DNA from: Isoetes taiwanensis | Taxonomy: Eukaryota > Streptophyta > Lycopodiopsida > Isoetales > Isoetaceae | DNA: 64,000 bases | Direction: 5' to 3' | NCBI GenBank assembly: GCA_021234155.1 | Contig: JAJEKV010000025.1 | Location: 7,206,531 to 7,270,530, forward strand | In this document: one piece after another, positions 1-61,680 of the stretch | How positions within the stretch are numbered: the first letter of the stretch is position 1 | Layout of the letters: every line of letters begins with the position of its first letter | Made by a program: the position numbers and the translations under genes | Notes under the pieces: generated by a model | What the model saw: the letters and a program-made list of their open reading frames with translations, nothing else | What the model was told of the DNA's origin: nothing | The model's database searches: none

Positions 1-1251
1 ATCAGTGTACTTCGTTCAGTTACGTATTGCTAAAAGCTTAAAAATATTATTTTTATCATTGACAGCGATGGCTGCTTGACACGTGGTAGAAATAGACAAG
101 AACAAGAACAATATTTGTACCTAGAGGTCTAGGGACCCACAACTATTGGAACCTCAAGTTTTGAGTACCTTCAAGAAAGCAGTCTCCAGGAAAAACTCAT
201 ACCATGCGGTGTGGCACAGTTTACCAAAGAATCGCCGGCCCAAAGTCTAGCCCAAAGTCTAGGAACCCTTTCAAAGGTGTGAAATCGAGGCCAAGTAAGC
301 AGGTCAATATTTCGAGGCGAGAATGCTGTTTTCGAGAATAAGAAATGGAATCTTTCATTTTCCACTTTACACTTTGTGCGGTCTGCATAAACGGTCATTA
401 AGTTGATTCAACAAAACATACAAATAAACATTGCACTACACTTGGTTTGCTGGTTAAATTTTGTGCAACGAACATTACTTCGATTCGATCTGAGCTTTTG
501 CAACAATATCTCAATGGTCGTTTTCTCAAGATATGGGCCCAGCGACTACTTGGCCCCCAAGTGGCCCAATTGTTATCATGCACAGGGCCCCGAGCTTGTT
601 GCTTGCTTCATTGTCCGGGAACAAGCTTGGCTATTACATCAGTCCTTGCAGGGTCCTGGTCTAGTTAGAGACGGTAGATGGGAAGCGGCCTCCCAATTTA
701 CCCACGAGAGCAAGACTATGTATACATTGCAGGAGTTGGTTAATGTGAGATGGAAGCCATACTCGAGTTACCGCTTCTTTTGAGAGATAGTCAAGATCAT
801 TTTGACATAGCATTCCATTACGCTTCCACAACTTCTGGAGGCACCATCATGCATTGCTCCTTACTTGAGGGTTCTAGATAGCGAATGCGCGATTCACGGG
901 ACCTCGGGGTGAGAAGGTCATTATCTCGGCTTGTCTGGTATCGTCATTCGCAGGGTTTTCCTTGAGGCCTTTGGCGGGGGTTTTGAAATCCTAGTGGTAA
1001 TGATTGTACTAGCCCATTTGTAACCGGGTCCATGACCTATTAAGTCTCCCGTGGACGTTAAAACCTATTCTATTCTATTCTATTCTTTAAAATGATTTCT
1101 TATTCTAGAATCGTTATCAATGGGCTGACCTTTCAGGGCTTTATCCCTTACCCCATAGACCATATCAATTCCTCCCCTCCTCGAGATGATTGCCCTCAAG
1201 CATGGAACACACCCAATATTTGCCACGGTGAACCTTAGCCTCTGATACCAA
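1..1251 (-). mobile_element. LTR retrotransposon, internal 5' leader and primer-binding site (minus strand)
   Basis: Positions 1239-1251, read on the minus strand, give TTGGTATCAGAGG. This closely matches the TGGTATCAGAGC primer-binding site complementary to the 3' end of initiator methionine tRNA, used by many plant LTR retrotransposons. It directly follows a sequence ending TAACA, as an LTR should end in CA. The element body therefore runs leftwards to the window edge. No gag or pol domain was recognised in it, and a copy of another repeat sits inside at about 952-1087. The element is probably old and broken. Confidence rests on the junction, since the second LTR is not in the window. Confidence 0.55.
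952..1087 (+). repeat. Short retroposon-like repeat, copy 1, tail (TATTC)n
   Basis: This belongs to a family of at least five related copies. Conserved blocks in order are an AGGGTTTTCC-like block, GGGGTTTT..AATCCT, GGGTCC, and GTCTCCCGTGGACGTTAAAA, directly followed by a pentanucleotide microsatellite (1065-1086). The same blocks in the same order occur at about 2680-2818, 50369-50490, 52031-52100 and 60414-60460, each with a different microsatellite. The layout looks like the 3' end of a SINE or LINE. Confidence 0.55.
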
Positions 1252-2679: not shown

Positions 2680-2818
2680 CAGTTTTCCTCGAAACCCTTG
2701 AGTAGGGGTTTTTAATCCGATTGATGTCAAAGCTTATGCTTCTTTATGATGGGTCCCATATGGAAGCCAGGTGTGGTCTCCGTGGGCGATAAAGCCCTTC
2801 CTTCCTTCCTTCCTTCCC
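2680..2818 (+). repeat. Short retroposon-like repeat, copy 2, tail (CCTT)n
   Basis: It shares TAGGGGTTTTTAATCC, GGGTCCCATA and GGTCTCCGTGGGCGATAAA with copies 1 and 3. It ends in a CCTT microsatellite at 2796-2818 rather than the pentanucleotide of copy 1. No coding capacity is seen. Confidence 0.6.
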
Positions 2819-18150: not shown

Positions 18151-19697
18151 GAGTAGAAGCGGATGAGGAAGTGAACCATCATGTCCGAATGTCAAAAGAG
18201 AGTTTATATCATCACTAATGGTTTTTTCCTATAACGAAGTGTTTTAAGCGGTAGAAGCTGTGGGAGAACGATAAATTTATCCGTCAAATATCTGAACTTT
18301 AATATTCTTGCTTGCTTGACCAATTGTTTCCTTTCCCTTCCCCGTCCCTTCAATTTTTCCCCACAGCTCTACCTAAGCCTTTCCCAAAGATGTCTTACCA
18401 TTAGTTTTCTTCCCCCCTCCCTCCGCACTTTGTGAACCTCCTCATTAGAGAATCGATTTTGCCATTCAATCTCATATTCTTGACCTTCCTCTTGACTTTG
18501 CACTCCCATGCCCTCCCCTTATGCCCTCGGTTCAAGGCAATATCTACACTATAATAAAGCCTTACTTTTACATTTTTCTACATGTTCCCTAGAAGCATAA
18601 AATAAAAAAGCTACATGAGACACTAATATCGTGGGTAATTTGAATCTGGATTTGCCTCAATCTCATATTCTTGACCTTCCCTCTTGACTTTGCACTCTCA
18701 TGCCCCATGCCCTCGGTCCAAGGCAATATCTACACTATAGTAAGCCTTACTTTTTCTTTTCTACATGTTCCCTAGAAGCATAAAATGAAAAGCTACATGA
18801 GATACTAATATCGTGGGTAATTAACTATTATGAAAAAACCTTTCAACTACACTTTTTGTTTTCTATATGATGACCATAAACATAAAATAGAATGCGTGCA
18901 AAGCTACATCTAGACACTAAAATTATCATTGAGACTCTTGATTATTGTCTCTTCGCATATACAAAGACCAACCAAGATGGACTTGACTACATGATTGCAA
19001 CAGTGTATTGAATAGTCAATGCGTCCTTTCGGCATTGTACCCAGATTATAGGCCCTAGCTAAGCAAATGGCATTCCATTTTCGCTCTGGTTGGCTCTTGT
19101 GGTGATTTTGAAATGTCACAAACTCCATATATTTCACGACAATCATTTGTCAGCTTGTGATTTATTTCTGATGCCCATACGAAGATGCTTATAAGTGCCA
19201 ATTTATGCCATTGGGTATCCAACTTTAAGAAAACAACTGCATCTCGCATTTCTAACTATAAGGGCAGATGTCTCTAAGAAACACTACGTGGAAATGATTG
19301 TGCAGATGTTGCTTGAGTTCTGCTGGCTTCGAGAGCACGCGGCCGTCTGTTAGAAGCAATGAAGACATGGCTGTTGTCATGCGACACCTCTTAATTGCAC
19401 AAAATGAGAAGCATGTACAACAGTCTCCATTGTGAAACCACTGTAGAATGTAATGTGGAAGACAGAGAGGTACGATCCAGCATCCCAAAATGCTGGCAGT
19501 AAAAATTCCTGAAAAGGAACGTGCCACTTGGCAGAGCATGATAGGTTGATCGGACTGAATTAATCCGATGGTAATAAAATAAATAGAGCAAATGAGGAAA
19601 CGAAAAAAAAAGGGAACACGTCAGATTGCCTGCTAACCTTCAGCAGTGGAGGAATGTACCACTGTGACGGTCATCTATGGCCTAACACAATGGTCAT
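17121..19697. repeat. Segmental duplicate, copy A, left part
   Basis: It aligns over its whole length with 40848-43286 (copy B) in the same orientation, beginning CTAACTCGTGTAATTC and ending near GGCCTAACACAATGGTCA. Short frames on the minus strand (about 18910-19590) are conserved between copies but match no family I can name. An extra tandem unit of 191 bp (18467-18657 against 18658-18840) occurs only in copy A. Confidence 0.9.
18467..18830. repeat. 191-bp tandem duplication specific to copy A
   Basis: CAATCTCATATTCTTGACC starts at 18467 and again at 18658, with the same following sequence (AGGCAATATCTACACTATA, then CTACATGTTCCCTAGAAGC). Copy B has one unit near 42206. Confidence 0.85.
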
Positions 19698-23099: not shown

Positions 23100-23830
23100 A
23101 AGCCGACCATGAAGATCATCTCCGGAATGTTAGGGGTATTAAAGGCCCAATCAAAGGAGACGTGCCATCTCCCAACTTAGGAATTATAACTCGATATAGT
23201 CACTGCAAGCAGAAGTTAAGCTTCCCAAATTTGAAATCTCCAATCTTGGAGATTGATTTACCCCGGAGCCTCTTCTTCCACCGGATTGAGGCCTCCGGTA
23301 GAAGTGGTGGTATTATCATGATATGGAAAAATCTGAAACATCTCTCTTTCCATAACTCCCTAAGATGTGGCAAGCTGTCATATTTCAGTTACAAGATTCC
23401 ACATTTGAGTTATAAATGTTTTATGCCTCCACCAACCCAAAAGAAAGAGAAGTTCTTTGGTGCGAAATCAAAACTTGATGCATGCTAATCCAATCTTAAT
23501 TTGGATTATAGGGGATTTTAATAACACTCCCTCCCGGAATATGAAACTAGGCAACCATCTCAATATGTCTACTTTAGAGAGATCTAATTGGGACTCTTTT
23601 ATCTCCTCGACACTTCATTGGTTTATGTGCCTTCCTCTCGCTTCTTTTACTTGGTCTAATAAGCAAAAGGTGACAAAAGAGTCTATTGTACCCTGGACAG
23701 ATTTTATGTGTGTAGTCCAACCTCATCCCTTTGGGATAATTGCTATGTCACTAGTGATGAAGGCAATATAATATCAGACCATCAGCCTCAATTTTTATGT
23801 ACTAAGCAATTGACTCAAACACCTAGGGAT
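23100..23830 (+). pseudogene. LINE ORF2 endonuclease domain, broken
   Basis: Recognisable parts of the AP-endonuclease-like domain are a RNVRGIKGP-like start near 23125, GDFNNTPS at 23510-23535 (the GDFN motif), FTWSNK at about 23645, and SDHQP at 23777-23791 (the SDH motif at the domain end). Frames change between these pieces. Confidence 0.75.
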
Positions 23831-25756
23831 GGCAATGTATCTTACAAATTTAACTGTGCTCTTCTAGAGAATGACTCCTTTGTTAGAGACTTCAAAGATT
23901 TCTATCTCAATATTCCTGATGAAGGTAATCAGCAGTCAATGAAAAGATTCTATGGCAAAATCAAGAAGATCAAGAGTTGGATTAAAGGTTGGTCTAAAAG
24001 CAAACATTTGGCCAAAATCAATGAATTGCTTGCCAAGATGAGGGATATTAGATCTCTCCTTCAAGAAGATCCTCACAATCTTAACCTTCATATTGGTGAG
24101 GAACTTCTAGAAAATTACCTAAAAAGTGTTGAGGAAATTGAGGCCAAAAGCTCTTCCATCAAATGTAAGATTAAATTTAATAAGGACATGGACTATGGCA
24201 GCTCCAGTTTTTTCTTTAAAATGGCTAAAAGTCGATCGCTTAGAAATGCTATCACTCAAGTTCGGGACCGACATTTGGAATTTCCCTAAATGACTCCAAG
24301 CTTATTAAGTCTTTCTTCCAAGAGAACTATGCCACTCTTTTTCCAAAACTCCATTTCAAACAAATTGACCTTGTCAAGGAAAGAAAATTTCTTGATTTCT
24401 TTGGATGTGATCATTCCATCTTCTATGGATAATATGGATGATTCTATTGTGACCCCCGAGAAGATGAGATTTTCAAGATTCTCGAGGATCCTTTTGGCGA
24501 GAGGCAAATCCCTCGGTCCCGATGGTCTTCCTAGTGAATTCTATGTTCACTACGGGATATTCTTAAACATGATATCATTTCCATGGTTTCAGGTTTTTGG
24601 GAGGCCAATTTCTTACATCCTTCAATCTCTCTTGGTTTTATTTCCTCATTCCTAAAAGTGGACAACCCATCTACTTTCTCGATTGGAGGCCGATCTCTTT
24701 AACCAATACCTCTTATAAGATCTCGTGCCAAGATAATTGCAAAATAGAATCAAAGTATTTCTCTAGAAGAACATATCTCTCTATCATCAACCTTTCTTCC
24801 TAATAGATTTATCTTGGACAATTATATCAATGCTATGGAAGGTCTTCATTGGAATAGCATCTCCAATCAAAATTGTGTGCTCCTTAAATTGGATTTTAAG
24901 AGAGCCTTTGATCTGATGAGATGGGATTTTTCTTGATCTTGCTCTCTCAAAATTTGGGTTTCATCCTAAATTAAGGCTGCTAATTCATGGTTTGAATACT
25001 TTCTCTCATTCTGGTTGTCATTATTAATGGCTCCCCTCCCAATTCTTTCCCTTATCTAGAGGAGTCGGACAAAGGTTGCCCCTAGCCCCTATTTATTCTT
25101 GATAGTAGTGAAATGCTTACAAAGTCGTTCTTCATTTCAAGGAGCTTGGGATGATTAAAGGTCTTAATCTGCCAAATAGTGATGAGTCCCTAACTCTCTC
25201 TCAATATGCTGATGATACTTTTGCCTTTTTAGATGCTGATATATCTAACATTGATTTCTTTCTCGACATTATCAATCAATTCTCTGCTGCTTCTGGGGTC
25301 CACCTGAACTTGGCTAAATGTGTGATTATTGGTGATAATATCCAGCCAAACTTTGCTAATCTCAAGGTTGTTAATACTCATCATGCCTCCACTCTATTAG
25401 GTATGCCTTTGTCTCTTAATCCTAATCTTAAAGGCCTATGGCAGCCTATAATAGACAGAATAAGGAAAAAGCTAAATAATTTCAGAGGTGGATTGTCCTT
25501 TGCTGGTAGATCTATTATTGCAAACCCTGTCCTGGCCAGCACTCACATCTATTTTTCCTCTGCTTTAGTGGCCCCTAAGTCAATCTATTCCGAGATTGAA
25601 AAGATTATCAGAAAGTTCATTTGGAAAGGCTCTCATCTTGTTGGATGGAATTATGTGTCCAGGCCTAAAAAATATGGTGGTCTTGGCTGCAAGGATCTTT
25701 ATCTACAAGCCCGTACTCTCTGGTGGCAAATACATATGGAAATCCTTCACGAATAA
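23831..25756 (+). pseudogene. LINE ORF2 reverse transcriptase, broken
   Basis: A linker (23831-24289) leads into the reverse transcriptase. GPDGLPSEFY is at about 24517-24545. DWRPISLTNTSYKI is at about 24680-24725. LDFKRAFD is near 24890. A damaged GVxQGxPLxP box follows near 25060. The catalytic box QYADDTFAFLD is at 25200-25235, in the frame 25151-25756. SGVHLNLAKC and LLGMPLSLNP follow in the same frame. The YADD box is intact, but upstream frameshifts break the ORF. Confidence 0.88.
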
Positions 25757-27290
25757 TGCTGGTCCATCCTCTCATTTTATCGACATCTGGCTCTCTTGCT
25801 CTCACTTGGTTAGCCATCCTACAATTGAGCATATTTTACGATTCTGTTTTTAATGTTCTCCAGGCTGGTGCAAATACTTCCCCTCTTATGAGAAACTTCA
25901 TTATGGCTTGGAATAAAGTGCAATCTGCCTATGTTTATGATGATCCTCAAGATCTTAACTTGCAAATGACTATTTTTTGGAATCCAATTCTGAAGAATCA
26001 TCCTAGTAAGACTCTTGCCTTGAGACACCCAAGAATTTATAAGAAATGGTCTGATTATGGCCTCATTTTCCTAGGTGACCTATATTTGAATAATAAGCTC
26101 ATCTCTTGGACCAATCTGAAAAACTCAGTTCATGGCACTTCTAGTGACAAGAAGATCTATCTGCACATTAAGTCGATCCTTCCTCAGACTTGGTTAAATA
26201 ATATTGTCCCCAAGGCAACCAATTGGAGCATTGCAGGTAAGTGTTTATATAAGGTCAGTCAAATCTACTCTGCTATTAGCAATTCTGACAATCCTTCCAA
26301 AGCTGGTCTAAAATGGTCTATCACTATGGAGGAGGCCAAATCTCTATTTCATGATGTTTGGAACTCTTATTGCTTCCCCAAGGTCAACTTCTTTATTTGG
26401 TTGTTAGCTAATAAAAGCATTCCTAATTTACAACTTCTCTCCCTCGGGGAATGACAACATCTTCGCCTTGTGCGGCTTCATCAGAGTTGCGATGCGGAGG
26501 AAGATCTTGAACACATCTTTATCTGCCCTAAGCTTAATTTTTTTTTGGTCTTGGTTTGATGATAAGTTGGGTCATTTTTTTCCTAAGGATCTCCGGAAAT
26601 TTGCCGTCTTATGTCAAAATGGTTGCACTTTTGCTAACACTATCATGTTTATTGCTCTTTGGAATATCCGGAAGGCAAGAAATAGAGTAGTTTATGGCAA
26701 AAAGAATTTCTCTATCTTTTGGATCAAATTGCATTTTCAACTTGATATTCATCCATCGCTACAAAGACACAAAAAGGAAGCAATCGATAAATATGACGAA
26801 AATGGGATTTGGTTGGTCATTTTGGGGGCCTTTTGATTTATTTGTAGCTAACTTCAATGTTATCAATTCTAATTTGATTTTGGTGATGATGTTAGCCTAC
26901 TTGAAGAAATGCAAGAAGAGCATGGGTGAAATGGATGACAATCTACTCAAAAGGGATGTTGATCTTGACCTAAAACCGTTTCTTCAACAAACTCTCTGAA
27001 AATGAAGAAAATTTGGACACGAAGATCGCAAGAATGTTCTGCAGAGAGGTGGTGCAAGTCTATACTATGTTTGATTTCCTCTCCATGTACCACAGATACA
27101 TGACTGAGGAACAATTCTCAAGATTCAGAGAGCAGTACTATACTCACAGACTGTTGGCTGATTTGTTTGGTTCCTTGCTTTGTTTGATCAGATCGACCTC
27201 TCTTGCGTGGATAGCATTTGCCGAAAGTGACATTGGCAAGTTACACCTTTGGATCTGGCGACTCTTTCTATGCCTTCTTCAACTCTAAGC
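25723..27290 (+). pseudogene. LINE ORF2 C-terminal region with zinc-binding RVT-associated domain
   Basis: The frame 25723-26454 ends with KVNFFIWLLANKSIPN, typical of the zf-RVT region after plant LINE reverse transcriptases. Out of frame after it come EEDLEHIFICPKLNF (about 26500-26540) and NIRKARNRVVYGK (about 26665-26705), the usual continuation. The last readable part is at 26990-27290. Confidence 0.7.
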
Positions 27291-27700
27291 TTGACTCCCT
27301 CTCACTTCAGACCCAGTAGCCCCATCTTTGTATCTGGCTTCCTATCCAACCCTGCTAAGACATTAATTGCTCAATGGTATTTCCTAATCTAGCAGAATTT
27401 TGGTTGATGTTACTTTCAGGTTTTAACAATAATTACTAGTTGGGGTCATGATTTCTACACATTTTTGAAGACTATCTCATTTTTGGAAGATTATCTCTAC
27501 TTATCAGCTATCCTTTGACCAATTCAGCTCATCCCAGGATCTGATTTCTGCTGCATATTTTTCAGACTGCACATCACAACATTTTGATGGACGTTTATGT
27601 ATAAAGATCTTTGTTATGCTTTAATCTGCTGATCAAAGTAGAACTATGTACTGTGTTTCTTGATTAATGGAAAAATTCACTCTTACTCTAAAAAAAAAAA

Positions 27701-27726
27701 AAATAATAATAATAATAATAATAATA
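27701..27726. repeat. (TAA)n microsatellite at the LINE 3' end
   Basis: A 13-A run passes into eight or so TAA units. The equivalent site in copy B is (CAA)n, so both alleles carry trinucleotide repeats at the same place. Confidence 0.95.
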
Positions 27727-28581
27727 GAGCAAATGCGAAAACGGAAAAAAAAGGGGAACCCATTACATTGCCTGCTGACCTTCAGCAGTGGAGGAATGTA
27801 CCATTGTGACGGTCATCATGGCCTAACACTTCACAAGGAAGAGCAAAACTGGCGCAACCAGGCTCCGCTTCATCATCCAGGCTGTGAGATTTGTCTATGC
27901 ATTTTCAGCATAGTTCCTAGTACGAACTATAGAACAGATCCTGTTCAACTATAGTCGTGCTTATGTTTGCTCTGACGTTTGTTTATATATGCTGATAGAT
28001 TTAGTCACGGATGCCTATGGGATATACATTTTATGTTGTGCAGACCTTGCCGGATTCCTTCTAAGACACTGATTGAACATCATCGCACATCTTGCTATCA
28101 ACCAAAATAGCAGCAGGACCATTCTGTAGCAGCTCGGCATCAAGTCCGTTATTTTGAAACCCCCTTTCTCTTTTCTTTATTTTCCCATTTATGATTTGGT
28201 ACTTCTCTGCAAATACCCTTTCTCACATGGTCTGCTACTGTCTGTGCAAAATAACCATGCAACAATGATGGGTAGTGAGTGCAAGATATACCTGGATGAA
28301 TAAGAGCCTAACTGCTCATACGTAAAAGGGACATTTTATGAGAGCTTCTTTTGTTTGACTTTAGGTGCATCATGCATTGAACTAAATGCTCAATTGGATC
28401 TAGTAACTATTGATATGGAAATAATTTATAGGCTAGGATTGATGGGAGATGCTTGGTTGCATCTTTGAGTAGCATATGAGATGGAAGTGATGCGGTAAAA
28501 TATGTAATGAAGAGGGCAGACAAGTTCATGTAATGACAACCTTGTGTATGTCACTACAAAACTGTTGCCCCATATCGACGT
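27727..28581. repeat. Segmental duplicate, copy A, right part
   Basis: 27726-27849 matches 43376-43500, and 27860-28581 matches 51394-52180. The two diverge exactly after CATATCGACGT, some 30 bp inside the left end of the CACTA element that starts at 28552. Copy B has a 70-bp insertion (52031-52100) not present here. Confidence 0.92.
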
Positions 28582-28649
28582 CTATAACGACGTCCAGACG
28601 TCATTTAAGCGTTGATAAACGTCGACAAAATGTCGATAAACGACGCCAA

Positions 28650-29250
28650 TAACGACGCCGGACATCGCTTTTACGCCCCGCTTGTCGCCGTTATGCACGC
28701 CGAATCGCGGCGATCGTTGCTAAGCGGCGACAAGTCGCCGTTAAACCTAATAGCCGGACATGTGGTGCCGCCACGCCGCCGTATCCGGGTAGCGACGTCT
28801 CTCCAAAGGCGGCACGATGTGGCGTATGCGCCGGGTAACGTTGCTCATCGCCGCCAACGACATCGCCGCCGCCACCGTGGCACGTTTCTAGCACGCTGCC
28901 GCTGCCGGTATTTGATGCGGTGCACGCCGGCGACGCTGCTCAACGACGATAAGATAACGCGGGCGCCATCCCGGTCGCCACCGCGGGTAACGCCGCTCAT
29001 GGGCGACATGCCGACGTCACATGCCGACCGTGGTCACCGCCGACGCCGCGCCAGCTTTGTCCTTTGCATGTCGGCGTGGCGCGCCGCCATGGTCGCTGCC
29101 ACGGTGTCGTCTCGGCGTGGCCGTGCCCGGCTTGTCCTTTGCATGCCGACGTAAATATTTGCCATGGTCACGCTTTGGCATGTCGGTCACCGACATGGGC
29201 CGTGCCAGCTTGTCCTTTGCCAGCACACATGCTGACGTGGCTGACACGCC
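28650..29250. repeat. CpG-rich subterminal block with about 79-bp tandem units
   Basis: GCTTGTCCTTTGC-type words recur at about 29053, 29132 and 29211. The block is very rich in CG dinucleotides and GC compared with the AT-rich DNA on both sides. It is probably the regulatory end of the CACTA element, comparable with the GC-rich downstream control region of maize En/Spm. Frames here (such as 28612-29154) follow from the base composition and are not called as genes. Confidence 0.65.
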
Positions 29251-32504: not shown

Positions 32505-34587
32505 GTGGTTCAAGGAAACAAATATAATTGAACTCGATCTAAAAAATATGAAATCCAACACCTGATGCCAATATGGCCTATACACTTAAATGGCATCACT
32601 AAAATATACCTGATGAACTTGGAGGACATGATTGGAGAAAACATCCACGAAACAGCAAAACTAGACAAAAACGAGTACTCTCTCTGCACCTTCTTTTAAG
32701 CGAGCACGCCATACTGCTCCAACTGCAGTAACTGTTGCTTTGGCCGCTTGAGACATACTTCTTCCAGCTACACAATCATCTTATTAAGGTGGTCAGAGGA
32801 TCTTATTGCTAGTGAAGTCCTAAAGGTGATACAGAGAATGAGGTTGGGGCCTACTATCAGTGGAAGTTAAATTTCAGCTGTTAAACATGAACTAATTTCC
32901 GTTGCTTCTAAGCAGACTTTGCAGATTGAATTGAGAGATGCATCTAAGCAGGCACTTGCAGATTGACTTGGAAGATGTATTTAGAAAAAGTTCAAACAAT
33001 GAAGACGAATAAAGGAATGCGTTAGTCTTGCAGTTAGTCTTGCAGTTACGTCCTCCAATTCCGGATGTGTAGAGCGCCATCTTGAAATCGTAATTTGCGG
33101 TCGCAGAAGCAATCACTAGCCAATGCAGAAAGATGCAGAACTCCCACATTTTAGTCAATGCAGAAAAAACTCCAAAAACACTTTGTAAGAGGTCCACATC
33201 TGTAAATGTAAATTTATCATGTCGTACATACATGGGCACAAACAACCAGCCCTGTTGCTGCAACAGTGACACCCAGCTCAAATCCTGAATCAGCAAGGCC
33301 TGTCCTGGCACGACGCTAAGTTCAAATACATTTATGGTGCCTTATGCAAATGCCAAAGAAAACAAGGTCCTATTGAACGGTTTGGTTAGCATCTGAATAT
33401 TGTTGCAGCATGTCTAGGAATACAATACAATTCAGAAATATAGGCCGGACTACGTTTAAAGTTTGATCTCCGTGGACGAAAAATTCTAATAATGACCAAC
33501 CATACTTTAAGGATTGAACATTAGAATAAGAATCAGCCGACCAGCATTGCAACCAAGTTTTAGTTGATAATATAAAATCTGTATGCTGGATGTCAGACCT
33601 GGTATCAGCTTGGAATTTAGCAGCTGCTTGTCCTTTCCACAGTTGTTGTACTCAAAAAACTTTTCAAAGACTGGATTTCCAGATATCAAATTCAACCTGG
33701 CAAAAGGCTCCGCCTAGACATACTATCCAGCTGTCTAAAAGCCCATAATGGCCTCAAATTCTGATCTTGGGCTTGGCATTAGCTTTATCTTTGAAACTTC
33801 AGTTCAGAAGTATGTTCATCATTTAGCATTTTTGGTGCAGGTTCTCTGACAACATAAATAACTTCTAATAAATGGGCTGAGAAGACACCATCACATTTCT
33901 CTAAATAACTTCTAATATATGGGCTGCGAGAACACCATCACATTTCTCTAATTCTTCAGATGGTGGAAGCTCAAACAATTTAGCCATGAAAATGACCTTT
34001 TAAATGGGAAGCAGCTGTGAAATGAAGGTTCTCTCTTCCCGGATCAAATGGTCCACGAAGGTTAAGGCTGAAGCATAGATGCTAACCCTTGTTACCAGTA
34101 ACCCGTAATCGGAATGCCACAATGCTAAGGTAGTTTAACTAGATCCTAGCTGTTTGAGAATGTCAAAGTTTGGATCCCCTTGCCCAAAATTGACTCCTTT
34201 GTGCCATTCAATGCTTCAGCTCGATATCAAATGAAAGCTTTAGCAGGAAAGCTTCAGGCTAGTAAAATGCAGGATATCAAATTCAGGCTTCCGGAAAGCT
34301 TTAGCAGAGATGATAGCAGATTACTCATAGCTTCCGGAAAGCTTTATCACGAGACTATAGCAGGTCATTTATAGCTCCATCTTTTACAGAAGATACATGC
34401 CGAGAAAATCCAAGACTGACAAATAAAGCTTGACAAAAAAAAAAAAGGCGTGCCCACCCAGAATCCGAGATTGAACTGAACAAAACAAGCCGATACATAC
34501 CTTTTAAACCAAATATTGGGATTGCATGATCTGCACCATTGTTTCAGCGCCACAGTTTAGAGTTCACTTCGAGTTGTTTTAGATTTA
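32505..34587. other. Stretch between CACTA and PIF-like elements, no recognised gene
   Basis: A minus-strand frame at 32892-33311 has hydrophobic segments and a protein-like look (it contains LLQQQGWLFVPMYVRHDK), but I do not recognise a family and see no conserved start or splice sites. It could be a captured gene fragment. GGAAAGCTTTA words recur three times at 34230-34350. Confidence 0.3.
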
Positions 34588-34734
34588 GGGTCCATTCACA
34601 CTTGCGGTTAGGTTAGGTTAAGTTAGCAATTTTAACAGCTATTAGCTTCACACTACACGTTAAGTTAACATTTGGTTAAGACATTTGGTTAATGCTGTTA
34701 ACTATTTTTTAACGGTAAACCCTAACCCACTCAC

Positions 34735-36272
34735 CACAGCTAAACCCAAATAGAAATTGTTAGCATTCTGAAGGTTGGAAATGTAGTTTTATACTGTTCC
34801 TTTATCTGAAGAAGCCATATGAGACAGATGTGCAATGATCTAAAGCCTGATCATAGTTTAATGCTCATACATATGCCTAAGCAAACAAAGACATCCAGCA
34901 TACATATACCCAGCTATGGAGGCCGAAGCTTACCATGTTTTACCTCTGCTGGGTTTTACCTCTACTGCAAACTGCCATAGAGATGTTTGCGAGCTCCATT
35001 AAGGTGTTTATGAACACAAAAGAACATATTACGGATGGAAATGAAAACACCGAATGACTGCTGATCTCTTCCCCATTTTTTAATAGCTTCACAGTTTTGC
35101 GAATCCATATTATCTGAGCTGTTCTATCGACGTCAAACCACCATACTTCTGCAACAGATTGTATGAGATTGGGAGGAGCATCAAATACTTGTAATGGGCT
35201 AGGGCCATCGCCGCCTTATGCTGCTCCCTTCCCACTCGAAGTTGAACTACAGAAGCCTAGATGCAACCCAGTGTCCCATTTTAATAAAAAAGATGTAAGG
35301 AGACTCGCTTCAGAGAGGAGGTTCTAGTTCTACATTAGTTTGTTTCTATGCCGCATAGCTCTTTCAGAGCTTGCAACCATATTTTCTTCATGGATATGAA
35401 AGCCACAGCTAAACCCAAATAGAAATTGTTAGCATTCTGAAGGTTGGAAATGTAGTTTTAAACTGTTCCTTTATCTGAAGAAGCCATATGAGACAGATAT
35501 GCAATGATCTAAAGCCTGATCATAGTTTAATGTTCATACATGTGCCTAAGCAAACAAAGACATCCAGCATACATATACCCAACTATGGAGGCCGAAGCTT
35601 ACCATGTTTTACCTCTGCTGGGTTTTACCTCTGCTGAAAACTGCCACAGAGATGCTCGCTAGCTCCATTAAGGTGTTTATGAACACAAAAGAACATATTA
35701 CGGATGGAAATGAAAACACCGAATGACTGCTGATCTCTTCCCCATTTTTTAATAGCTTTACAGTTTTGCGAATCCATATTATCTGAGATGTCCTATCGAC
35801 GTCAAACCACCATACTTCTGCAACAGATTGTATGAGATTGGGAGGAGCATCAAATACTTGTAATGGGCTAGGGCCATCGCCACCTTATGCTGCTCCCTTT
35901 CCACTCGAAGTTGAACTACAGAAGTCTAGATGCCAGTGTCCCATTTTAATAAAGAAGATGTAAGGAGACTCACTTCAGAGAGGAGGTTCTAGTTCTATAT
36001 TAGTTAGTTTCTATGCCTCATAGCTCTTTCAGAGCTTGCAACCATATTTTCTTCATGGATATGAAAGCCACAGCTAAACCCAAATAGAAATTGTTAGCAT
36101 TCTGAAGGTTGGAAATGTAGTTTTAAACTGTTCCTTTATCTGAAGAAGCCATATGAGACAGATGTGCAATGATCTAAAGCCTGATCATAGTTTAATGCTC
36201 ATACATGTGCCTAAGCAAACAAAGACATCCAGCATACATATACCCAGCTATGGAGGCCGAAGCTTACCATGT
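34735..36272. repeat. Tandem repeat, 2.3 units of about 667 bp
   Basis: Units start with CACAGCTAAACCCAAATAG at 34735, 35404 and 36069; the third stops at about 36272 after CTTACCATGTT. The units are nearly identical, so the amplification is recent. On the minus strand each of the first two units holds a coding-like stretch (for example VWWFDVDRTAQIIWIRK at about 35080-35150) that I cannot assign. Confidence 0.95.
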
Positions 36273-36669
36273 TACCATCTCTCAACATGACAAAAATAAG
36301 AAGAAAGCATTAGAGGAGATGACCTACAGAACTATTGCCTGATTGGTTTCATGATGACTTTTTTCTTATGGCTTTATTTTCCTTCTACAGAAGTTATGGC
36401 GCAAACTAGACCTCTTGCTTTGTTTTGAAGCAGAGGTACTCAATAAGGCTACTGAAATTGTGCAACATGGTCTTCAGGCTTCAAGGTCCACCAACTTAGC
36501 CATAGGGTCTGAACACAAATCACTTTGTAAGAAACTTCTATTTATTTTTGCGCAGCCTATCTTAGAGTGTATTGTTTAATTTGTATTTGTATTAAAAGTT
36601 ACAGTCTTATTACAAGTTGGAATATCAGGGTTCAAGTCCCTGCTTGGGTATATAAATATCACAATATTT

Positions 36670-40847: not shown

Positions 40848-43285
40848 GTCTAACTCCTAACTCGTGTAATTCTTATTGGCAAGATGCCATGTCAAATATA
40901 GATTCACTTATAAGATTCAGATATTCTGTGTTACATGGAATAGAGAAGGCAAAAAAACAAGAATAAAATAGATGCAGACAACGCATTTGCGAAGATTTTT
41001 GGGGCATCAGCTCTATCATCAGCTGCCAGGGCTTAACTGACACACTTGCCATGATTCTTGCGATAAATCAGATCAAATTCACGTTTTGGATAGTTTTCGT
41101 TTCTGACCTCCCCCCGAAAAGCTTTTTCCCAGCTTTTTTCATGTTTTGAACACTTTAGATGCTTTTTATCCATTTTTTTTTTCTGTTTTTCTTCATCGCA
41201 ATTTTCGGTGGTGTTTTTTTCTTGGGAGGGGCTGTAAAAGAAAGTCTTCTGTGTTTTTTCGTCGCTTATTGTTTGTCGGACAATCCCGCCATGTGCGGTC
41301 ACCTTCATCAGTGCACCCATTTCGGCGAGCTAAGCTAAGAAATTCGTAGGAGTACTTTGAAAGCGGTTCTAATCAGATCGAAATTAAATTTTGGAAGGAT
41401 TGGAACTAGGCTAGAGAAGCTTGTGGCAAGAGATGGAATCTGTGTGAAGAGCTTAATTGGTCACTTTGGATCAACGAAAGGCTAAAATGGCTTGAACATG
41501 CCAGCGAATGCAAATGCATATGAAGTTTTTGCAGCAGTGACTTTCTCACTTTCTTCAAATATGCTTGGCTCGATTCTTGATGGATCATCGAAAATTACTG
41601 CATAGTCTTACGTTCTCGGGCCTCGCCCCAATAAAGCGGGGACGTTTCAAGCGAGAAAAAGAGAGAGCGAGAGAGCGTAAAAAGAGAGGTCTAAAAGTTC
41701 AATTTTTTTGTCATAATAGCAAATGGCTTAACCCGTTGCAGCACAGATGCACAATATCAAGTCCACCAAGACCATTCGGCCCATCCGTCAAGAAAAACTC
41801 GGCCCCGCATCCAGCAAAATACAAAAATTTGTTGGCAATCAAACACAAAAATTGGTCGGCAATCAATCCGCAATTCGGCACCATCACAGAGAGCAGATGA
41901 GGAAGTGAAGCGGATGTCTGAATGTCAAAAGAGAGTTTATATTATCACTAATGGTTTTTTTCCTATAACGAGTGTTTTTAAATGGTAGAAGCAGGGGAGA
42001 ACGATAAATTTATCCGTCAAGGATCTGAACTTTAATATTCTTGCTTGCTTGACCAATTGTTTCCTTTCCCTTCCCGTCCCTTCAATTTTTTCCCCACAGG
42101 CTCTACCTAACCCTTTCCCAGCATGTCTTACCACTAGTTTTCTTCCCCCTCCGCTCCCTCCTCGCACTTTGTGAACCTCCTCGTTAGGGAATCTGATTTG
42201 CCTTCAATCTCATATTCTTGACCTTCCTCTTGACTTTGCACTCCCATGCCCCTCCCCTTTTTTAGCCCTCAGTCCAAGGCAATATCTACACTATAGTAAG
42301 CCTTACTTTTTGTTTTCTACATGTTCCCTAGAAGCATAAAATGAAAAGTTACATGAGACACTAATATCATGGGTAATTAACTATTATGAAAGAACCTTTC
42401 AACTACACTTTTTGTTTTCTATATGATGACCATAAACATAAAATAGAATGCGTGCGAAGCTACATCTAGACACTAAAATTATCATTGAGACTCTTGATTA
42501 TTGTCTCTTTGCATATACAAAGACCAACCAAGATGGACTTGACTACAGGATTGCAACAGTGTATTGAATAGTCAATGCGTCCTTTCGGCATTGTACCCAG
42601 ATTATAGGCCCTAGCCAAGCAAATGGCATTCCATCTTCGCTCTGGTTGGCTCTTGTGGTGATTTTGAAATGTCACAAACTCCATATATTTCACGACAATC
42701 ATTTGTCAGCTTGTGATTTATTTCTGATGCCCATATAAAGATGCTTATAAGTGCCAATTTATGCCATCGAGTATCCAACTTTAAGAAAAAAACTGCATCT
42801 CGCATTTCTAACTATAAGGGCAGATGTCTCTCAGAAATACTACATAGAAATGATTGTGCAGATGTTGCTTGAGTCTGCTGGCTTCGAGAGCACGGGGCCC
42901 TCTGTTAGAAGCAATGAAGACATGGTTGTTATCATGTGATGCCTCTTAACTGCACAAAATGAGGAGCATATATAACAGTCTCCATTGTGAAACCACTGTA
43001 GATCTGTGTAGATTGCCACTTTGTAATGTGGAAGACAGAGAGGTGCGATCCAGCATCCCAAAATGCTGGCAGTAAAAATGTTGACGATATTCCTGAAAAG
43101 GAACGTGCCACTTGGCAGAGCATGATAGGTTGATAGGGCTGAATTAATCCAATGGTCATAAGATAAATAGAGCAAATGAGAAAACGAAAAAAAAAAAAAG
43201 GGAACCCGTCAGATTGCTTGCTAACCTTCAGCAGTGGAGGAATGTACCACTTGTGGCCGGTCATCTATGGCCTAACACAATGGTC

Positions 43286-43286
<1 letters not shown>
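40848..43286. repeat. Segmental duplicate, copy B, left part
   Basis: It aligns with 17121-19697 in direct orientation, but has single units where copy A has tandem duplications. Minus-strand frames at 42466-43264 are conserved between copies with substitutions, but no family was recognised. Confidence 0.9.

Positions 43287-43375
<89 letters not shown>
43287..43375. repeat. (CAA)n microsatellite, about 30 units
   Basis: An uninterrupted run of about 89 bp lies between two related segments of about 120 bp (GAGCAAATG..AAAACG..CTTCAGCA) that also flank the LINE in copy A. It makes polyglutamine or polythreonine frames that are not genes. Confidence 0.97.
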
Positions 43376-43502
43376 GAGCAAATGCGAAAACGGAAAAAAA
43401 AAAAGGGAACCCATTACATTGCCTGCTGACCTTCAGCAATGGAGAAATGTACCATTGTGACGGTCATCATGGCCTAACACTTCACAAGGAAGAGCAAAAC
43501 CG
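43376..43502. repeat. Segmental duplicate, copy B, middle part
   Basis: It matches 27726-27849 and ends at GAGCAAAACC, where the TIR element of copy B begins. Confidence 0.9.
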
Positions 43503-44019
43503 GTAATTGCGCTAACACACTGACCCCAATTTTTGGTCCACAGTTGTTTTTTACTTGTACGGAAGTGTTGTTTTATGCCAAAAACAACACCAAAATGGCC
43601 CCAAAAGTCCACGTGGCCCGTTTATCCGGATTTGCACAAAGAGACAGTGGTTTTTTGGCAGAAAATTTCCACTGTGGTTTTCTTGGCACCCTTTTTTTTT
43701 GTCAACGTGTCCTTTTTTTCACTATTGTTTTTTGCAAAATTTTATCAACGTGTGGTTTTTTCTTGACTGTGGTTTTTTCCACGAGCCATAACACGCGTTG
43801 GTTTAGATATTACGACACGTGTAAACTTAAATTACAACGTCAAAGTAAGATGGTTTTTTAAAAAAAATTACATGTCATTTAACCAAGTACCACCTATTTA
43901 CTTAAATCTAGCTATTGTTTTTAATGCTACTAACTATTGTTTTTCTAAAATAAGGACATGTAAAAAAGCACTATTAGTACACATAGAAAAAGAAACATGT
44001 TGTTTCCAATGTGTCTTTA

Positions 44020-46669: not shown

Positions 46670-47345
46670 GTGGCAAAATATGGTGAATGACGTGGCAAAA
46701 GTGGCATGATGATGTGGCAAAGGGTATTTTTTGCAATCTCTATGGAATAAATGGGGAAATTTGAACTTTGCAGAAGTTGACATGCACATGATGATGTGGC
46801 ACGCCAGTGGTGATGCCAAGTAAGGAAGACCAAATTTTGTCCAGGGCAAAAATAATGTGCAACTTTGGCTTTCCATGGGGGGATGTGACAAATCTTTTGT
46901 GACATGGCAAGATATGGGTGATGTGGACATTTTGATGACTAGGCATTTTGCAACAAATAGACAAAACAAATATTTTCTGTATAGGAATTTTGGCAAAGGG
47001 AACTTCAAGAACTTAGAGCAGTTCATTCTTAGGTGCTTTAAAGATTCATGCAGGTACATCAATGAGCTATAATCGAAAATTGCCGGTTTGAGATAGATAG
47101 ATAGATAGATAGTAGTTTTAGACATTGAATACATGAACAAATGTTGGTTGAAGAACTACATTTGAATATGGTGAATGACATGGCAAAAGTGGCATCATGA
47201 TGTGAAGGGTATTTCTTGCAATCTCCATGAGTTGAGTGAAGAATAAAATTTGCAAAAGTTGACATGCACACGATGATGTGGCATGTCATTGGTGACATGT
47301 CGTGCCAAGTAAGCAAGGCCAACTTTTGACTAGGCCAAAAAAAAA
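46670..47345. repeat. Direct repeat of about 180 bp, spaced 0.5 kb
   Basis: 46670-46860 and 47167-47345 share ATGGTGAATGACRTGGCAAA, GTTGACATGCACA and GATGATGTGGCA in order. A short (GATA)n tract lies between them at 47091-47115. Confidence 0.85.
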
Positions 47346-50325: not shown

Positions 50326-50368
50326 GAAGTAGTTGAAGTAACTTGTCTTACATGGAATACTAGTATAA

Positions 50369-50490
50369 GAATAGAATAGAATAGAATATGATTTTATCGT
50401 CCACGGAGACCAACTGGCCTATGGGACCCAAGTACAAAGAGAGAGCAGCAGGCGTATTACTACCAGGATTAAAAAACCCCTGCCCATACT
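50369..50490 (-). repeat. Short retroposon-like repeat, copy 3, tail (CTATT)n
   Basis: Read on the minus strand it has AGGGGTTTTTTAATCCTGGT, GGGTCCCATAGG, GGTCTCCGTGGACGATAAAA and then a CTATT microsatellite (50369-50389). It is the clearest match to copies 1 and 2. Its 5' limit is uncertain. Confidence 0.65.
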
Positions 50491-50738
50491 GCACAGTTAT
50501 ATACATAATCGCAAGTACAGCTGAGGTTAATGTCGGACAGGGGGGCATAACTGAGTCCGCGTATCCATTACCTCCCGGAGGTACGATCCCAACAAGCCTA
50601 CAGAGGCCGTGCTCAGTAGCTCATGCAAGGCCTGATGGGGCACAACTAACCGAGCATACCGAGCCCGGATATGCTCGTCCGCCGGATATGCTCGTATGCT
50701 CGTGAGGACATGTGATCGTGCACGTGCATCACATGTAG

Positions 50739-51190: not shown

Positions 51191-51393
51191 TTATAAAATG
51201 ACATGTCACAATAGAAGAAACTACAAAACAACAGTGGATGTTTTAGTCCACTGAAAAAAGAACACCATTATCGAACAAAACCATACTTCCACAAATCCAC
51301 ATGTAGGATTCTTTGAAAACAGGACATGTAGACCTACCAAAACTGATGTTTTCAATAGTGGACCAAAAACCGGGGTGAGTGTGTAAAGTCAAC

Positions 51394-52180
51394 AGGCTCC
51401 GCTTCATCATCCAGGTTGTGAGATTTGTCTATGCATTTTCAACATAGTTCCTAGTACGAACTATAGAGCAGATCCTGTTCAACTATAGTCGTGCTTATGT
51501 TTGCTCTTGTTCATATATGCTGATAGATTTAGTCACGGATGCCTTTGGGATATACATTTTATGTTGTGCAGACCTTGCCGGATTCCTTCTAAGACACTGA
51601 TTGAACATCATCACACATCTTGCTATCAACCAAGATAGCAGCAGGACTATTCTGTAGCAGCTCGGCATCAAGTCCGTTATTTTGAAACCCCCTTTCTCTT
51701 TTCTTTATTTTCCCATTTATGATTTGGTACTTCTCTGCAAATACCCTTTCTCACATGATCTGCTGCTGTCTGTGCAAAATAACCATGCAACAATGATGGG
51801 CAGTGCAGCGAAAGATATACCTGGATGAATAAGAGCCTAACTGCTAATACATTTTATGAGAGCTTCTTTTGTTTGGCTTTAGGTGCATCATGCATTGAAG
51901 TAAATGCTCAATTGGATCTAGTAACTATTGATATGGAAATAATTTCTAGGCTAGGATTGATGGGAGATGCTTGGTTGCACCTTTGAGTAGCATATGAGAT
52001 GGAAGTGATGCGGCAAAATATGTAGTGAAGATAAGATAAGATAAGATAAATCTTTTAACGCCCACGAGAACCCAATCGGGTTATGGGACCAGAACAGAAA
52101 GAAGAGGGCAGAGGGCAGACAAGTTCATGTAACGACAACCTTGTGTATGTCACTACAAAACTGTTGCCCCATATCGACGT
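51394..52180. repeat. Segmental duplicate, copy B, right part
   Basis: It matches 27860-28581, including the first 30 bases of the CACTA left end (CACTACAAAACTGTTGCCCC at 52151), then breaks off after CGACGT. The CACTA insertion therefore predates the duplication, unless the 30 bases belong to the host segment. Confidence 0.92.
52031..52100 (-). mobile_element. Short retroposon-like repeat, copy 4, 70-bp insertion with tail (TTATC)n
   Basis: Copy A has an uninterrupted ATGAAGAGGGCAGAC here. Copy B has GAAG, then 70 extra bases, then GAAGAGGGCAG. The insert reads, on the minus strand, GGTCCCATAACC, GGGTTCTCGTGGGCGTTAAAA and four TTATC units. The 4-bp GAAG on each side fits a target-site duplication. 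This shows the family moves, and that 5'-truncated copies are inserted. Confidence 0.8.
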
Positions 52181-52285
52181 GTACAAGAATGAACAAAAGA
52201 GGAAAACCTTCAAGCATTTTAAGAAGGAAGGTAACCTATTATACTATAAGAACATCTTGTGCCGGCCTTGAGGAAGTGCAACGTG

Positions 52286-52700
52286 GTGATTCCGTCACGC
52301 GGAAGTGCAACGCGGTGATTCCGTCTCACGAAATTTCAAGGTAGTGATTCCGTCTCGCGGAATACATCACGTTGTGATTCCATCGACGGTATTCCGTCCG
52401 GTGGAATCTGTCGCTGGTGATTCCACGGGGGTGAATGCTAGAATACGTGATTCCATCCGGCGGTATCAAGACAGTGTGATTCCATCGCGTGGAATAAAGG
52501 GGCGGTGATTCCGTTCAACGGTATTCTGCGGTTGTGATTCCACGGGGAGGTATAAAACGGATGGTCAGGATGGACCCTGCAGACGGACGGCTGGGATCCA
52601 TCAGAGGGTACACCTGATGCTATCAGGTACGAAGAACGGGACCTCCGAAATGGATGTCATTCCCGGAGGGTCTGTGATTCCGCGGGAGAGTATTCACCGC
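52286..52700. repeat. Diverged array of GTGATTCC units, mostly 29-30 bp apart
   Basis: GTGATTCC occurs at 52286, 52315, 52344, 52374, 52417, 52447, 52476, 52505, 52534 and 52674. Most spacings are 29-30 bp; one is 43 bp. Each is followed after a few bases by GGAAT or GGTAT in most units, so many units could form small hairpins (ATTCCG with CGGAAT). The rest of each unit varies strongly. No coding role is seen. Confidence 0.85.
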
Positions 52701-59420: not shown

Positions 59421-61680
59421 CCATAGTTCGAAGGTTTGATGTGCTTGAGAATATAGTAGAACGGAAATGAACAGAGATCCCTTCGAGGAAGGGCAACATG
59501 GAGGACCCAACATGACCTAAGCAGATGCTTAGGAAAACGAATCCAAAGGAAAATAAAATGTTTAAAAGAAAAAATTCTTTGTCATGCTTGACATAGCTCC
59601 AAGTCTCGTACCTTGTTGCAAATATCCAATATCACACTTACACACTTATCCTTTCCTTACACTTATCCCACCATACACTTACCCTAGTCTCGCCTTCTCA
59701 TGTTCTATATATATTTTATTCCAATATCTCCCAGTACATCCACTAACCCAGTTGGTCTTCCCACAACTGTCACTCTTCCATTCGATCACCACGTCCCTCC
59801 GATGTGATAGTGGGAACTCTCTCCTCGGCAATCGGCCCGTCTAACTCTATGAACTATATGATTGTTCCCATTGTGATTATTATATTTTGATTCTGGGACT
59901 TTAAGCTAATAGCTCTAGTCATATTAACCTATTTATTGATGTCACCTTTTGACTAATCACACTCAGAAGTGTATGGCCCTTACTTGGTCTCTGCTCTTGC
60001 TCTCTTTTTACTTATACTAATTACCCGGCGCTCATTAATGTATTGGACCCTGCTCCAATGTGTTCCACTTGATGCATTATGATGCTGGAGGAAATGAATG
60101 TAATATCTATAATAATATATGTGCAACTATTTGGAAATCCTGCTCCCTTTACTTGGCCGCAATTTTGGTTTCACTGTTCATGCTCCACCACTTGTCCCCC
60201 ATTAGGACGTGCAAATAGAGTGGCCGCCACTTTGTTGCTTATCTCATTCCTAGACATACTCCCCATATGTATGTTGTTCTTAGTTTACTATTTTGCATAT
60301 TAGTCCAAACCCGACTAAATAATGCTTTCTTCAAATGGAAAAACAAACAACATGATTGAAATATGTTATTCATACTTTTATTTTACTAAGGCCAAATTAA
60401 AAGTAACTCCTCCATTGAATTGAATTGGCTTTTATCGTCCACAAAGAGTGAGTCCACTAGATTTTTTGGATATCCAAAGACACTTGTCGATTTATCTCTG
60501 CGATGAAGTTGAGTTAGTGGGCAATAGACAAGCTAGGGGATGGTGTTGGCATAATTTTGGATGTATAATGAATTCTTGTTTTACATTACTAAATTCTTGT
60601 CCAAGATGCATGACATTATAGAATGATAAGGACATTGCATTTTGTAATGGCCGATATGCCGAAATGGAAGATTCTTTCTATGTTAATCACGACTTCCTCC
60701 CACTAGTTTTATGTTTGTAGGTAGATAGATAAATAGGTAGATGGACAGTATTTTTTTCATCACAGCACAATCACAATATCCTGCAAGATATATGACGCCC
60801 CCTTAAATGTCCTATTGAGAGACACGGTTCTTGATTCCTCATACCAATGAAGTTGAGATATTTGGGGAGTGCTTATTGAATATAGTAAGAAAAAAATGGG
60901 CAAATTACAGTATGACAGCCAACAAACATTATATTTTGTATAAACAAGGTGCGAAAGCACTATCGATTGCCCCAATGCCACTAGCAATGGTGTATTTTTA
61001 AGATAAGCTTTTGGAAAACATGAACAAAATTATGTTGTATGTATCTATGGATATAAAACAACTCAACATCCCTTCAAGACTTATCCGCATATAGCACACC
61101 CAAGTTAACTTGTTAACTTATTATTTTATATAAAAGAGACATTCTCGTGATGAGGACTCGCGATATACGCACACCAAAACACCGGCCGATAGATAGTCGT
61201 TCCATTCATCACAGCAACAGTATATATTGGGTTTATAATTTTTGAAGTGAGTGGGGTAGCCGACCATAGGCACAATATCAGACTACCCCATATAAAGAAA
61301 AAATGCCAATAATATCATGATAGGGCGAGGCAAAGGTGAGAGGAGTGGCGACAGCTTCTTATCGGGATAAAAAAAACCCCGCCCTTTCAGGCTTTCGGGG
61401 AAAACCCTAATAAGAAACGGCCGCCAATGTTCTCGAGGTATTGCTGGAGCGCCCATGCGAGGAAGCAAAGGACTGGTACCGGGTGAAGAGGAAATATGTA
61501 TGTCCCTTGAGTTTTCTAATCCTGAAAATATAAATGCAAACACCCATAAGTTTCGTTAATAAGCACAATGTATGGATGGCTTTAACTCCTGTCGTGAAGT
61601 GATTCGCATGCGTCCTGTAATGAAGGTCGATGCCAACGAAAACTACAAAACGTAAAATAACAAATATCAACATAACTGAA
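59421..61680. other. Gene-free stretch with repeat fragments
   Basis: It holds two pieces of the microsatellite-tailed repeat (60414-60460 and about 61365-61425, both minus orientation). Nothing else was recognised. Confidence 0.35.
60414..60460 (-). repeat. Short retroposon-like repeat, copy 5 (fragment), tail (AATTC)n
   Basis: On the minus strand GTGGACGATAAAAGCC is followed by AATTCAATTCAAT. Only the 3' end is present. Confidence 0.5.

Follow-up and report, generated by a model that had tools for sequence, protein, structure and literature searches.

A dispersed repeat with a common 3' end and adjoining microsatellites, and the probable insertion of one copy into a duplicated unit

A short fragment (c52052) distinguishes the two copies of a duplicated unit in the 64-kb stretch of DNA analysed here (the window), being present in copy B and absent from copy A. 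This fragment is probably (at about 70%) the severely 5'-truncated 3' end of a non-LTR retrotransposon which was inserted in B after the duplication of the units, and as part of the same reading, and with the same confidence, the source would be either a LINE or a short element that borrows a LINE's 3' end. What was observed is a pair of occupied and empty sites, a 3' end common to the copies of a dispersed family, microsatellites adjoining this end and 5' lengths which differ between copies.

Table 1. Positions in the window of the duplicated units, the insert and the copies of the family
Feature	Position	Strand	Basis
Duplicated unit, copy B (occupied)	51393..52186	+	Neighbourhood aligned to the window by BLAST
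Duplicated unit, copy A (empty)	27859..28587	+	Neighbourhood aligned to the window by BLAST
Inserted element fragment, 69 bp (52031-52100 in the preliminary description)	52032..52100	-	Absent from copy A; minus-strand family match
Microsatellite tail of the insert, (AAGAT)4.4 on the + strand, (ATCTT)n on the element strand	52028..52049	-	Perfect-array scan
Conserved 3' core of the insert, with predicted stem-loop	52051..52091	-	Core profile, folding, covariance model
Left GAAGA of the putative target duplication	52027..52031	.	A/B comparison
Right GAAGA of the putative target duplication	52101..52105	.	A/B comparison
Unoccupied-site GAAGA in copy A	28509..28513	.	A/B comparison
AGAGGGC x2, 7-bp tandem duplication adjoining the insert, single in copy A	52103..52116	.	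A/B alignment
Copy c1026	955..1086	+	Upstream shared 955-1024, core 1025-1065, tail (TATTC)4.4 at 1065-1086
Copy c2775	2682..2817	+	Upstream shared 2682-2750, core 2751-2796, tail (CCTT)5.5 at 2796-2817
Copy c50392	50368..50480	-	Upstream shared 50480-50430, core 50429-50390, tail (TATTC)4.2 at 50388-50368
Weak copy c60427, TTTGTGGACGATAAAAGC + (AATTC)2.8	60413..60455	-	Core score at noise edge
Weak core-like match c33465, without microsatellite	33440..33485	+	Core profile, 20-mer

The dispersed family and its 3' end

The 3' end of the family follows the pattern GGTCCCAT, a hairpin and CGTGGRCGWTAAAR, and then a perfect microsatellite. Four strong copies (c1026, c2775, c50392 and c52052) and two weak ones (c33465 and c60427) are present in the 64 kb. 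The core profile was seeded with c2775, c50392 and c52052, including a few tail bases and leaving out c1026, and run over the window unfiltered it gave eight matches at E values up to 10. The three seeds reached 38-40 bits (maximum 39.8), c1026 14.3, c33465 11.9 and c60427 9.1; the best core score in 40 order-2 surrogate windows was 9.0 bits, placing c1026 and c33465 above this level and c60427 at its edge. The two weakest of the eight matches (63812 and 53789) were not accepted as copies. A degenerate 16-mer derived from the copies and allowed up to three mismatches found only the same six places, with 0.98 expected and a maximum of four in 100 shuffles. When a covariance model was built from the four strong copies, it recovered these four, as it must, together with c60427 at an E value of 1.3.

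A second profile, 126 bp long and seeded with c1026, c2775 and c50392, gave 11 matches down to noise and found the non-seed c52052 at an E value of 1.2e-4. The match at 61412-61359 (E 0.0098) was dropped because neither hairpin nor tail was seen there by eye, and four weaker ones (13868, 10955, 4698 and 13831) were not accepted as copies. The preliminary description had related the insert to four or five other copies; three of these (c2775, c50392 and c1026) are strong, but the remaining two (c33465 and c60427) are weak. Its 20-mer, searched with up to three mismatches, does find c2775, c33465 and c50392 (0 expected) but misses the insert itself. The three longer copies are 55-59% identical over the 126-bp stretch, which indicates that the family is old or diverse.

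Exact searches with the core and the core plus tail in GTDB and IMG/VR returned two matches, one in a contig of 67% G+C (L001) and one in a contig of a bacterial MAG (L002), and both were judged to be chance since they are coding DNA by eye and carry no microsatellite. Rfam gave no match in the window at gathering scores, and none at an E value of 1 for positions 50360-50720. In the open-licence literature no matching plant family was found and the 15-mer was absent; four 10-11-mers occur in 75 papers, and the 30 listed among them were all apparently unrelated.

The microsatellites give the strongest evidence for a fixed 3' end and for a tail that belongs to the element. Ten perfect arrays of 4-6-bp units with at least three units occur in the window, against 0-3 per surrogate in 10 surrogates. 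Five arrays have at least four units (the four long tails of Table 1 and one at 47091-47112), and four of these five begin 1-3 nt 3' of the TAAAR of a core, in the same orientation to that core, so that a fixed 3' end is well supported. Four out of four core-adjoining arrays would arise by chance with a probability of about 2e-14 under uniform and independent placement, the array threshold being post hoc. All the strong copies end in CGTGGRCGWTAAAR followed by a simple repeat, which bears out within this window the shared 3' end that had been predicted for the family, and a simple tail is also present in one of the two weak copies. On the element strand the unit is TATTC in c1026 and c50392, CCTT in c2775 and ATCTT in c52052, and among the weak copies it is AATTC in c60427, c33465 having none. 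In addition, the long arrays are one-sided, lying only 3' of the core in the four strong copies.

The fifth array, (AGAT)5.5 at 47091-47112, has no core adjoining it by eye and no profile match. The five arrays with at least four units are all 21-22 bp long regardless of the unit, which may only reflect the threshold.

A stem-loop is predicted in the 3' core and is likely. In the folds of all four strong copies the GUCC(C)AU segment pairs with the GUGGRC segment as an outer stem, and an inner hairpin appears in the minimum-energy fold of three of them (not c1026). In a hand alignment 19 of the 20 cells of the outer stem are paired and 17 of the 20 of the inner one, and the observed pairing of the inner 3' arm is matched by 2 of 24 permutations, the observed order included. 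The automatic alignment has 86% of cells paired, against 26-47% in slid versions; its covariation is not above shuffles, 160 of 500 reaching its pairing and covariation. The folding z-scores range from -0.7 to -1.45 in the strong copies and are +0.1 and +1.0 in the weak ones.

Upstream of the core the length of the shared sequence varies: three copies have about 90-115 bp of it, while the insert has about 48 bp, and roughly 90 bp is common to three copies and 110 bp to two. Two landmarks recur there, GGGGTTTT..AATCC at about 90 bp from the end in three copies and GTTTTCC at about 110 bp in two. Three copies have this upstream similarity, and the insert lacks it. Pairwise upstream alignments of c1026 with c50392, c2775 with c50392 and c50392 with c52052 beat all of 200 shuffles; that of c1026 with c2775 scored 64, above the 99% level and under the best of 200 shuffles (69). 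Long, gappy upstream alignments were judged unreliable past about 115 bp. None of the 10 upstream ORF pieces tested, out of 23 listed, matched Pfam at an E value of 0.1, and the copies look truncated.

Other repeats were also seen in the window. Another dispersed repeat, about 110-165 bp long, occurs at 19572-19688, 27690-27852, 43158-43278 and 43339-43503, and adjoins simple repeats which differ, (AAT)8 at 27702-27726 and (ACA)30 at 43286-43375. Tandem units of 29 bp lie at 52272-52362, diverged GTGATTCC repeats carrying on by eye (52272-52530), and a tandem duplication with a period of about 670 bp and 96.7% identity lies at 34734-36273. The window also holds a DHU1_N domain (E 1e-30), known from a plant protein, and matches to CTU2 and RVT_1 which are both under the curated cut-offs; its content is eukaryotic and resembles that of plants.

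The duplicated units and the insert

BLAST within the 64-kb window aligned A and B in blocks of 94.2% and 96.1% identity with a break at 52031/52110. The two units differ by 23 substitutions over 712 aligned columns (K80 0.033) and by four gaps, of 1 and 81 bases in A and of 6 and 11 bases in B. This divergence would make the copy in B young, provided that it was inserted there. Both units also hold CACTACAA (28552-29150 and 52151-52186), which we take to resemble the end of a CACTA-type DNA transposon; in A it is followed by CGACGTC-type repeats which look G+C-rich, and the similarity of A and B stops 36 bp into the CACTACAA stretch.

The 81 extra bases of B comprise the insert (69-70 bases), a second GAAGA or GAAG and a second AGAGGGC; the site has a single GAAGA in A and two in B. 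An insert of 70 bases flanked by GAAG had been described beforehand, and 52031-52100 is indeed a stretch of 70 bases between two such motifs (actually GAAGA), but the total extra sequence is 81 bases and not 74. Neither is the target in A clean, as had been claimed, since the doubling of AGAGGGC beside the insert in B had been missed.

Read on the element strand, the insert consists of TTTCTGTTCT, then GGTCCCAT, the hairpin and CGTGGGCGTTAAAA, and then the microsatellite tail, the end of which coincides with the A/B breakpoint. The other end is less well defined. It lies 10 bases past the clear family similarity, and these 10 bases, five of which are identical by eye to c50392, are not clearly family sequence; in addition, the match to the 126-bp profile overruns the insert by 11 bases into the flank (to 52111). 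The 5' boundary is therefore not sharp, and because the first 10 bases of the insert are not clearly of the family an insertion is held slightly less firmly, and a deletion in A slightly more so.

The putative target duplication is weak evidence, since the left GAAG, or GAAGA, overlaps the (AAGAT)4.4 array. It is visible, and weakly so, in one copy only, by the comparison of A and B. A blind search for flanking repeats in five copies put none of them above the 95% null level, and one was equal to that level.

Origin of the insert

Target-primed reverse transcription agrees with the fixed 3' end and its simple tail, the variable 5' length, the one-sided microsatellites, the lack of inverted repeats at the insert and the empty site. 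The A/B difference would then have the polarity of an insertion, by way of an RNA intermediate and presumably with a helper enzyme. A LINE protein would recognise the 3' stem-loop of its own RNA, the target DNA would be nicked at ...GAAGA and reverse transcription would be primed on the short repeat tail. To judge by the letters at the site, base pairing would be possible between the AAGA primer end left by the nick and UCUU of an (AUCUU)n RNA tail, and slippage at priming may make the microsatellite. Reverse transcription would stop after about 50 nt, leaving a target duplication of 4-5 bp. Against this stand the shortness of the duplication and its overlap with the tail, the unexplained 7-bp duplication at the junction, the unsharp 5' end of the insert, the negative blind search for flanking repeats and the lack of an enzyme-coding parent among the 10 upstream pieces tested. 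Of the marks given when target-primed reverse transcription was proposed in the preliminary description, the fixed 3' end, the tail and the 5' truncation are supported, but the target duplication shows weakly and in one copy.

Instead of a bare LINE 3' end, the insert could be the last part of a SINE that has a tRNA-type head of its own, an origin which is unlikely but ranks first among the alternatives. Internal pol III promoters carry A and B boxes, and their consensus was used for a promoter scan. A-box-like matches were found at -186 and -55 of c1026, together with a B-box-like match with two mismatches at -38, inside the core. These are not repeated in c2775 and c50392, where nothing like an A or B box lies within 300 bp, and no convincing tRNA-type promoter was thus recognised from the sequence of the family, the matches in c1026 being weak and unshared. 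A tRNA search of the window with bacterial settings found none and Rfam gave no match, which is not decisive as truncation may have removed the heads. Short 3' ends common to SINEs and LINEs are nevertheless known in plants (PMC3747384).

Slightly less likely again is that the element was once in both units and that an 81-bp stretch of A was deleted between AGA microhomologies of 3 bp. One 81-bp gap covers the entire difference, the 7-bp AGAGGGC included, with 2 mismatches in 40 bases, the same number as an insertion with a separate 7-bp slip, and the 5' end of the insert is not a sharp boundary of the family. The difference between A and B had been taken as proof of mobility, which was overstated, because a single deletion in A fits equally parsimoniously. 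As junction microhomology, the 5-bp duplication of the two-event placement has a chance of about 0.6% and the 3 bp shared at the junction in the one-event placement about 5.7%. However, the breakpoint of a deletion must fall near the end of the tail by chance (about 0.9%, for 3 nt on either side and uniform over the unit), and the family and its tails stay unexplained.

The dipteran mini-me elements generate microsatellites from their own simple sequence (PMC1634856), and a similar DNA element working without an RNA intermediate would agree with the variation of the repeat unit between copies. It is very improbable here, as in each of the four strong copies the long array is confined to the 3' side, the copies differ in how far they reach 5', and B carries the element while A lacks it. 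A DNA transposon or MITE was rejected for the insert, as 1 of 12 of its terminal bases matches as an inverted repeat.

The insertion of a truncated non-LTR 3' end, which we prefer, could be extended to an undescribed plant LINE lineage which has a stringent 3' stem-loop and a reverse transcriptase that adds a copy-specific microsatellite of about 20 bp at each landing site, and which thereby seeds most of the longer 4-5-bp microsatellites of the genome (four of five in the window). This extension is unlikely. The element looks like one of an ordinary mobile kind with a somewhat unusual tail. If it is confirmed genome-wide, a plant element with a hairpin and a microsatellite at its 3' end would join the few reported, a modest addition, and some 4-5-bp microsatellites would have a direct origin. 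Moreover, the A/B pair is a ready example of an empty site.

Comparison with known systems

A plant L1-clade LINE of the usual form was rejected because the family has no poly(A) tail; among the tabulated flowering-plant L1 families 224 of 233 end in (A)n and nine in none (PMC3747384). The window contains one degenerate L1-like LINE (23708-27728), whose reverse-transcriptase (RVT_1) match is weak, below the cut-off, and which has an A-rich/(AAT)n end.

Plant RTE-clade LINEs are alike in having a microsatellite-like 3' end in place of poly(A). In the table of PMC3747384 the tail of all seven RTE families of flowering plants is (TTG)n or (TTGATG)n, and this clade was rejected as the tails here are of TATTC, CCTT, TATTC and ATCTT. 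For RTE elements the microsatellite-like RNA ends have been proposed to influence nicking and priming (PMC13295347), and the upstream T-stretch signature given in the same source was not seen at the site of the insert, the one site checked. The Sauria SINE and Bov-B share a short pyrimidine-rich 3' repeat, (ACCTTT)n, but differ in sequence and host, and the SINE unit is constant in the species rows of that source (PMC13295347).

The family behaves, by analogy, most like the 3' end of a stringent-type LINE, such as UnaL2, ZfL2-1/2 or maize LINE1-1_ZM with ZmSINE2/3. The sequence and the repeat unit are different, the unit here varying among copies, and no ORF was seen. The ZmSINE2-type rows of PMC3747384 end in (T)n, unlike the tails of this family, and the grass hairpin described there has a conserved UCU loop and a CGAG flank, listed as a further difference; three SINE/LINE pairs with a common 3' end were counted in flowering plants as of that source. 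The ZfL2 proteins require their 3' stem-loop (PMC4176376), and UnaL2 ends in TGTAA repeats which are ascribed to template slippage (PMC3747384). With these elements the family shares a short conserved 3' end, a predicted stem-loop and a short repeat.
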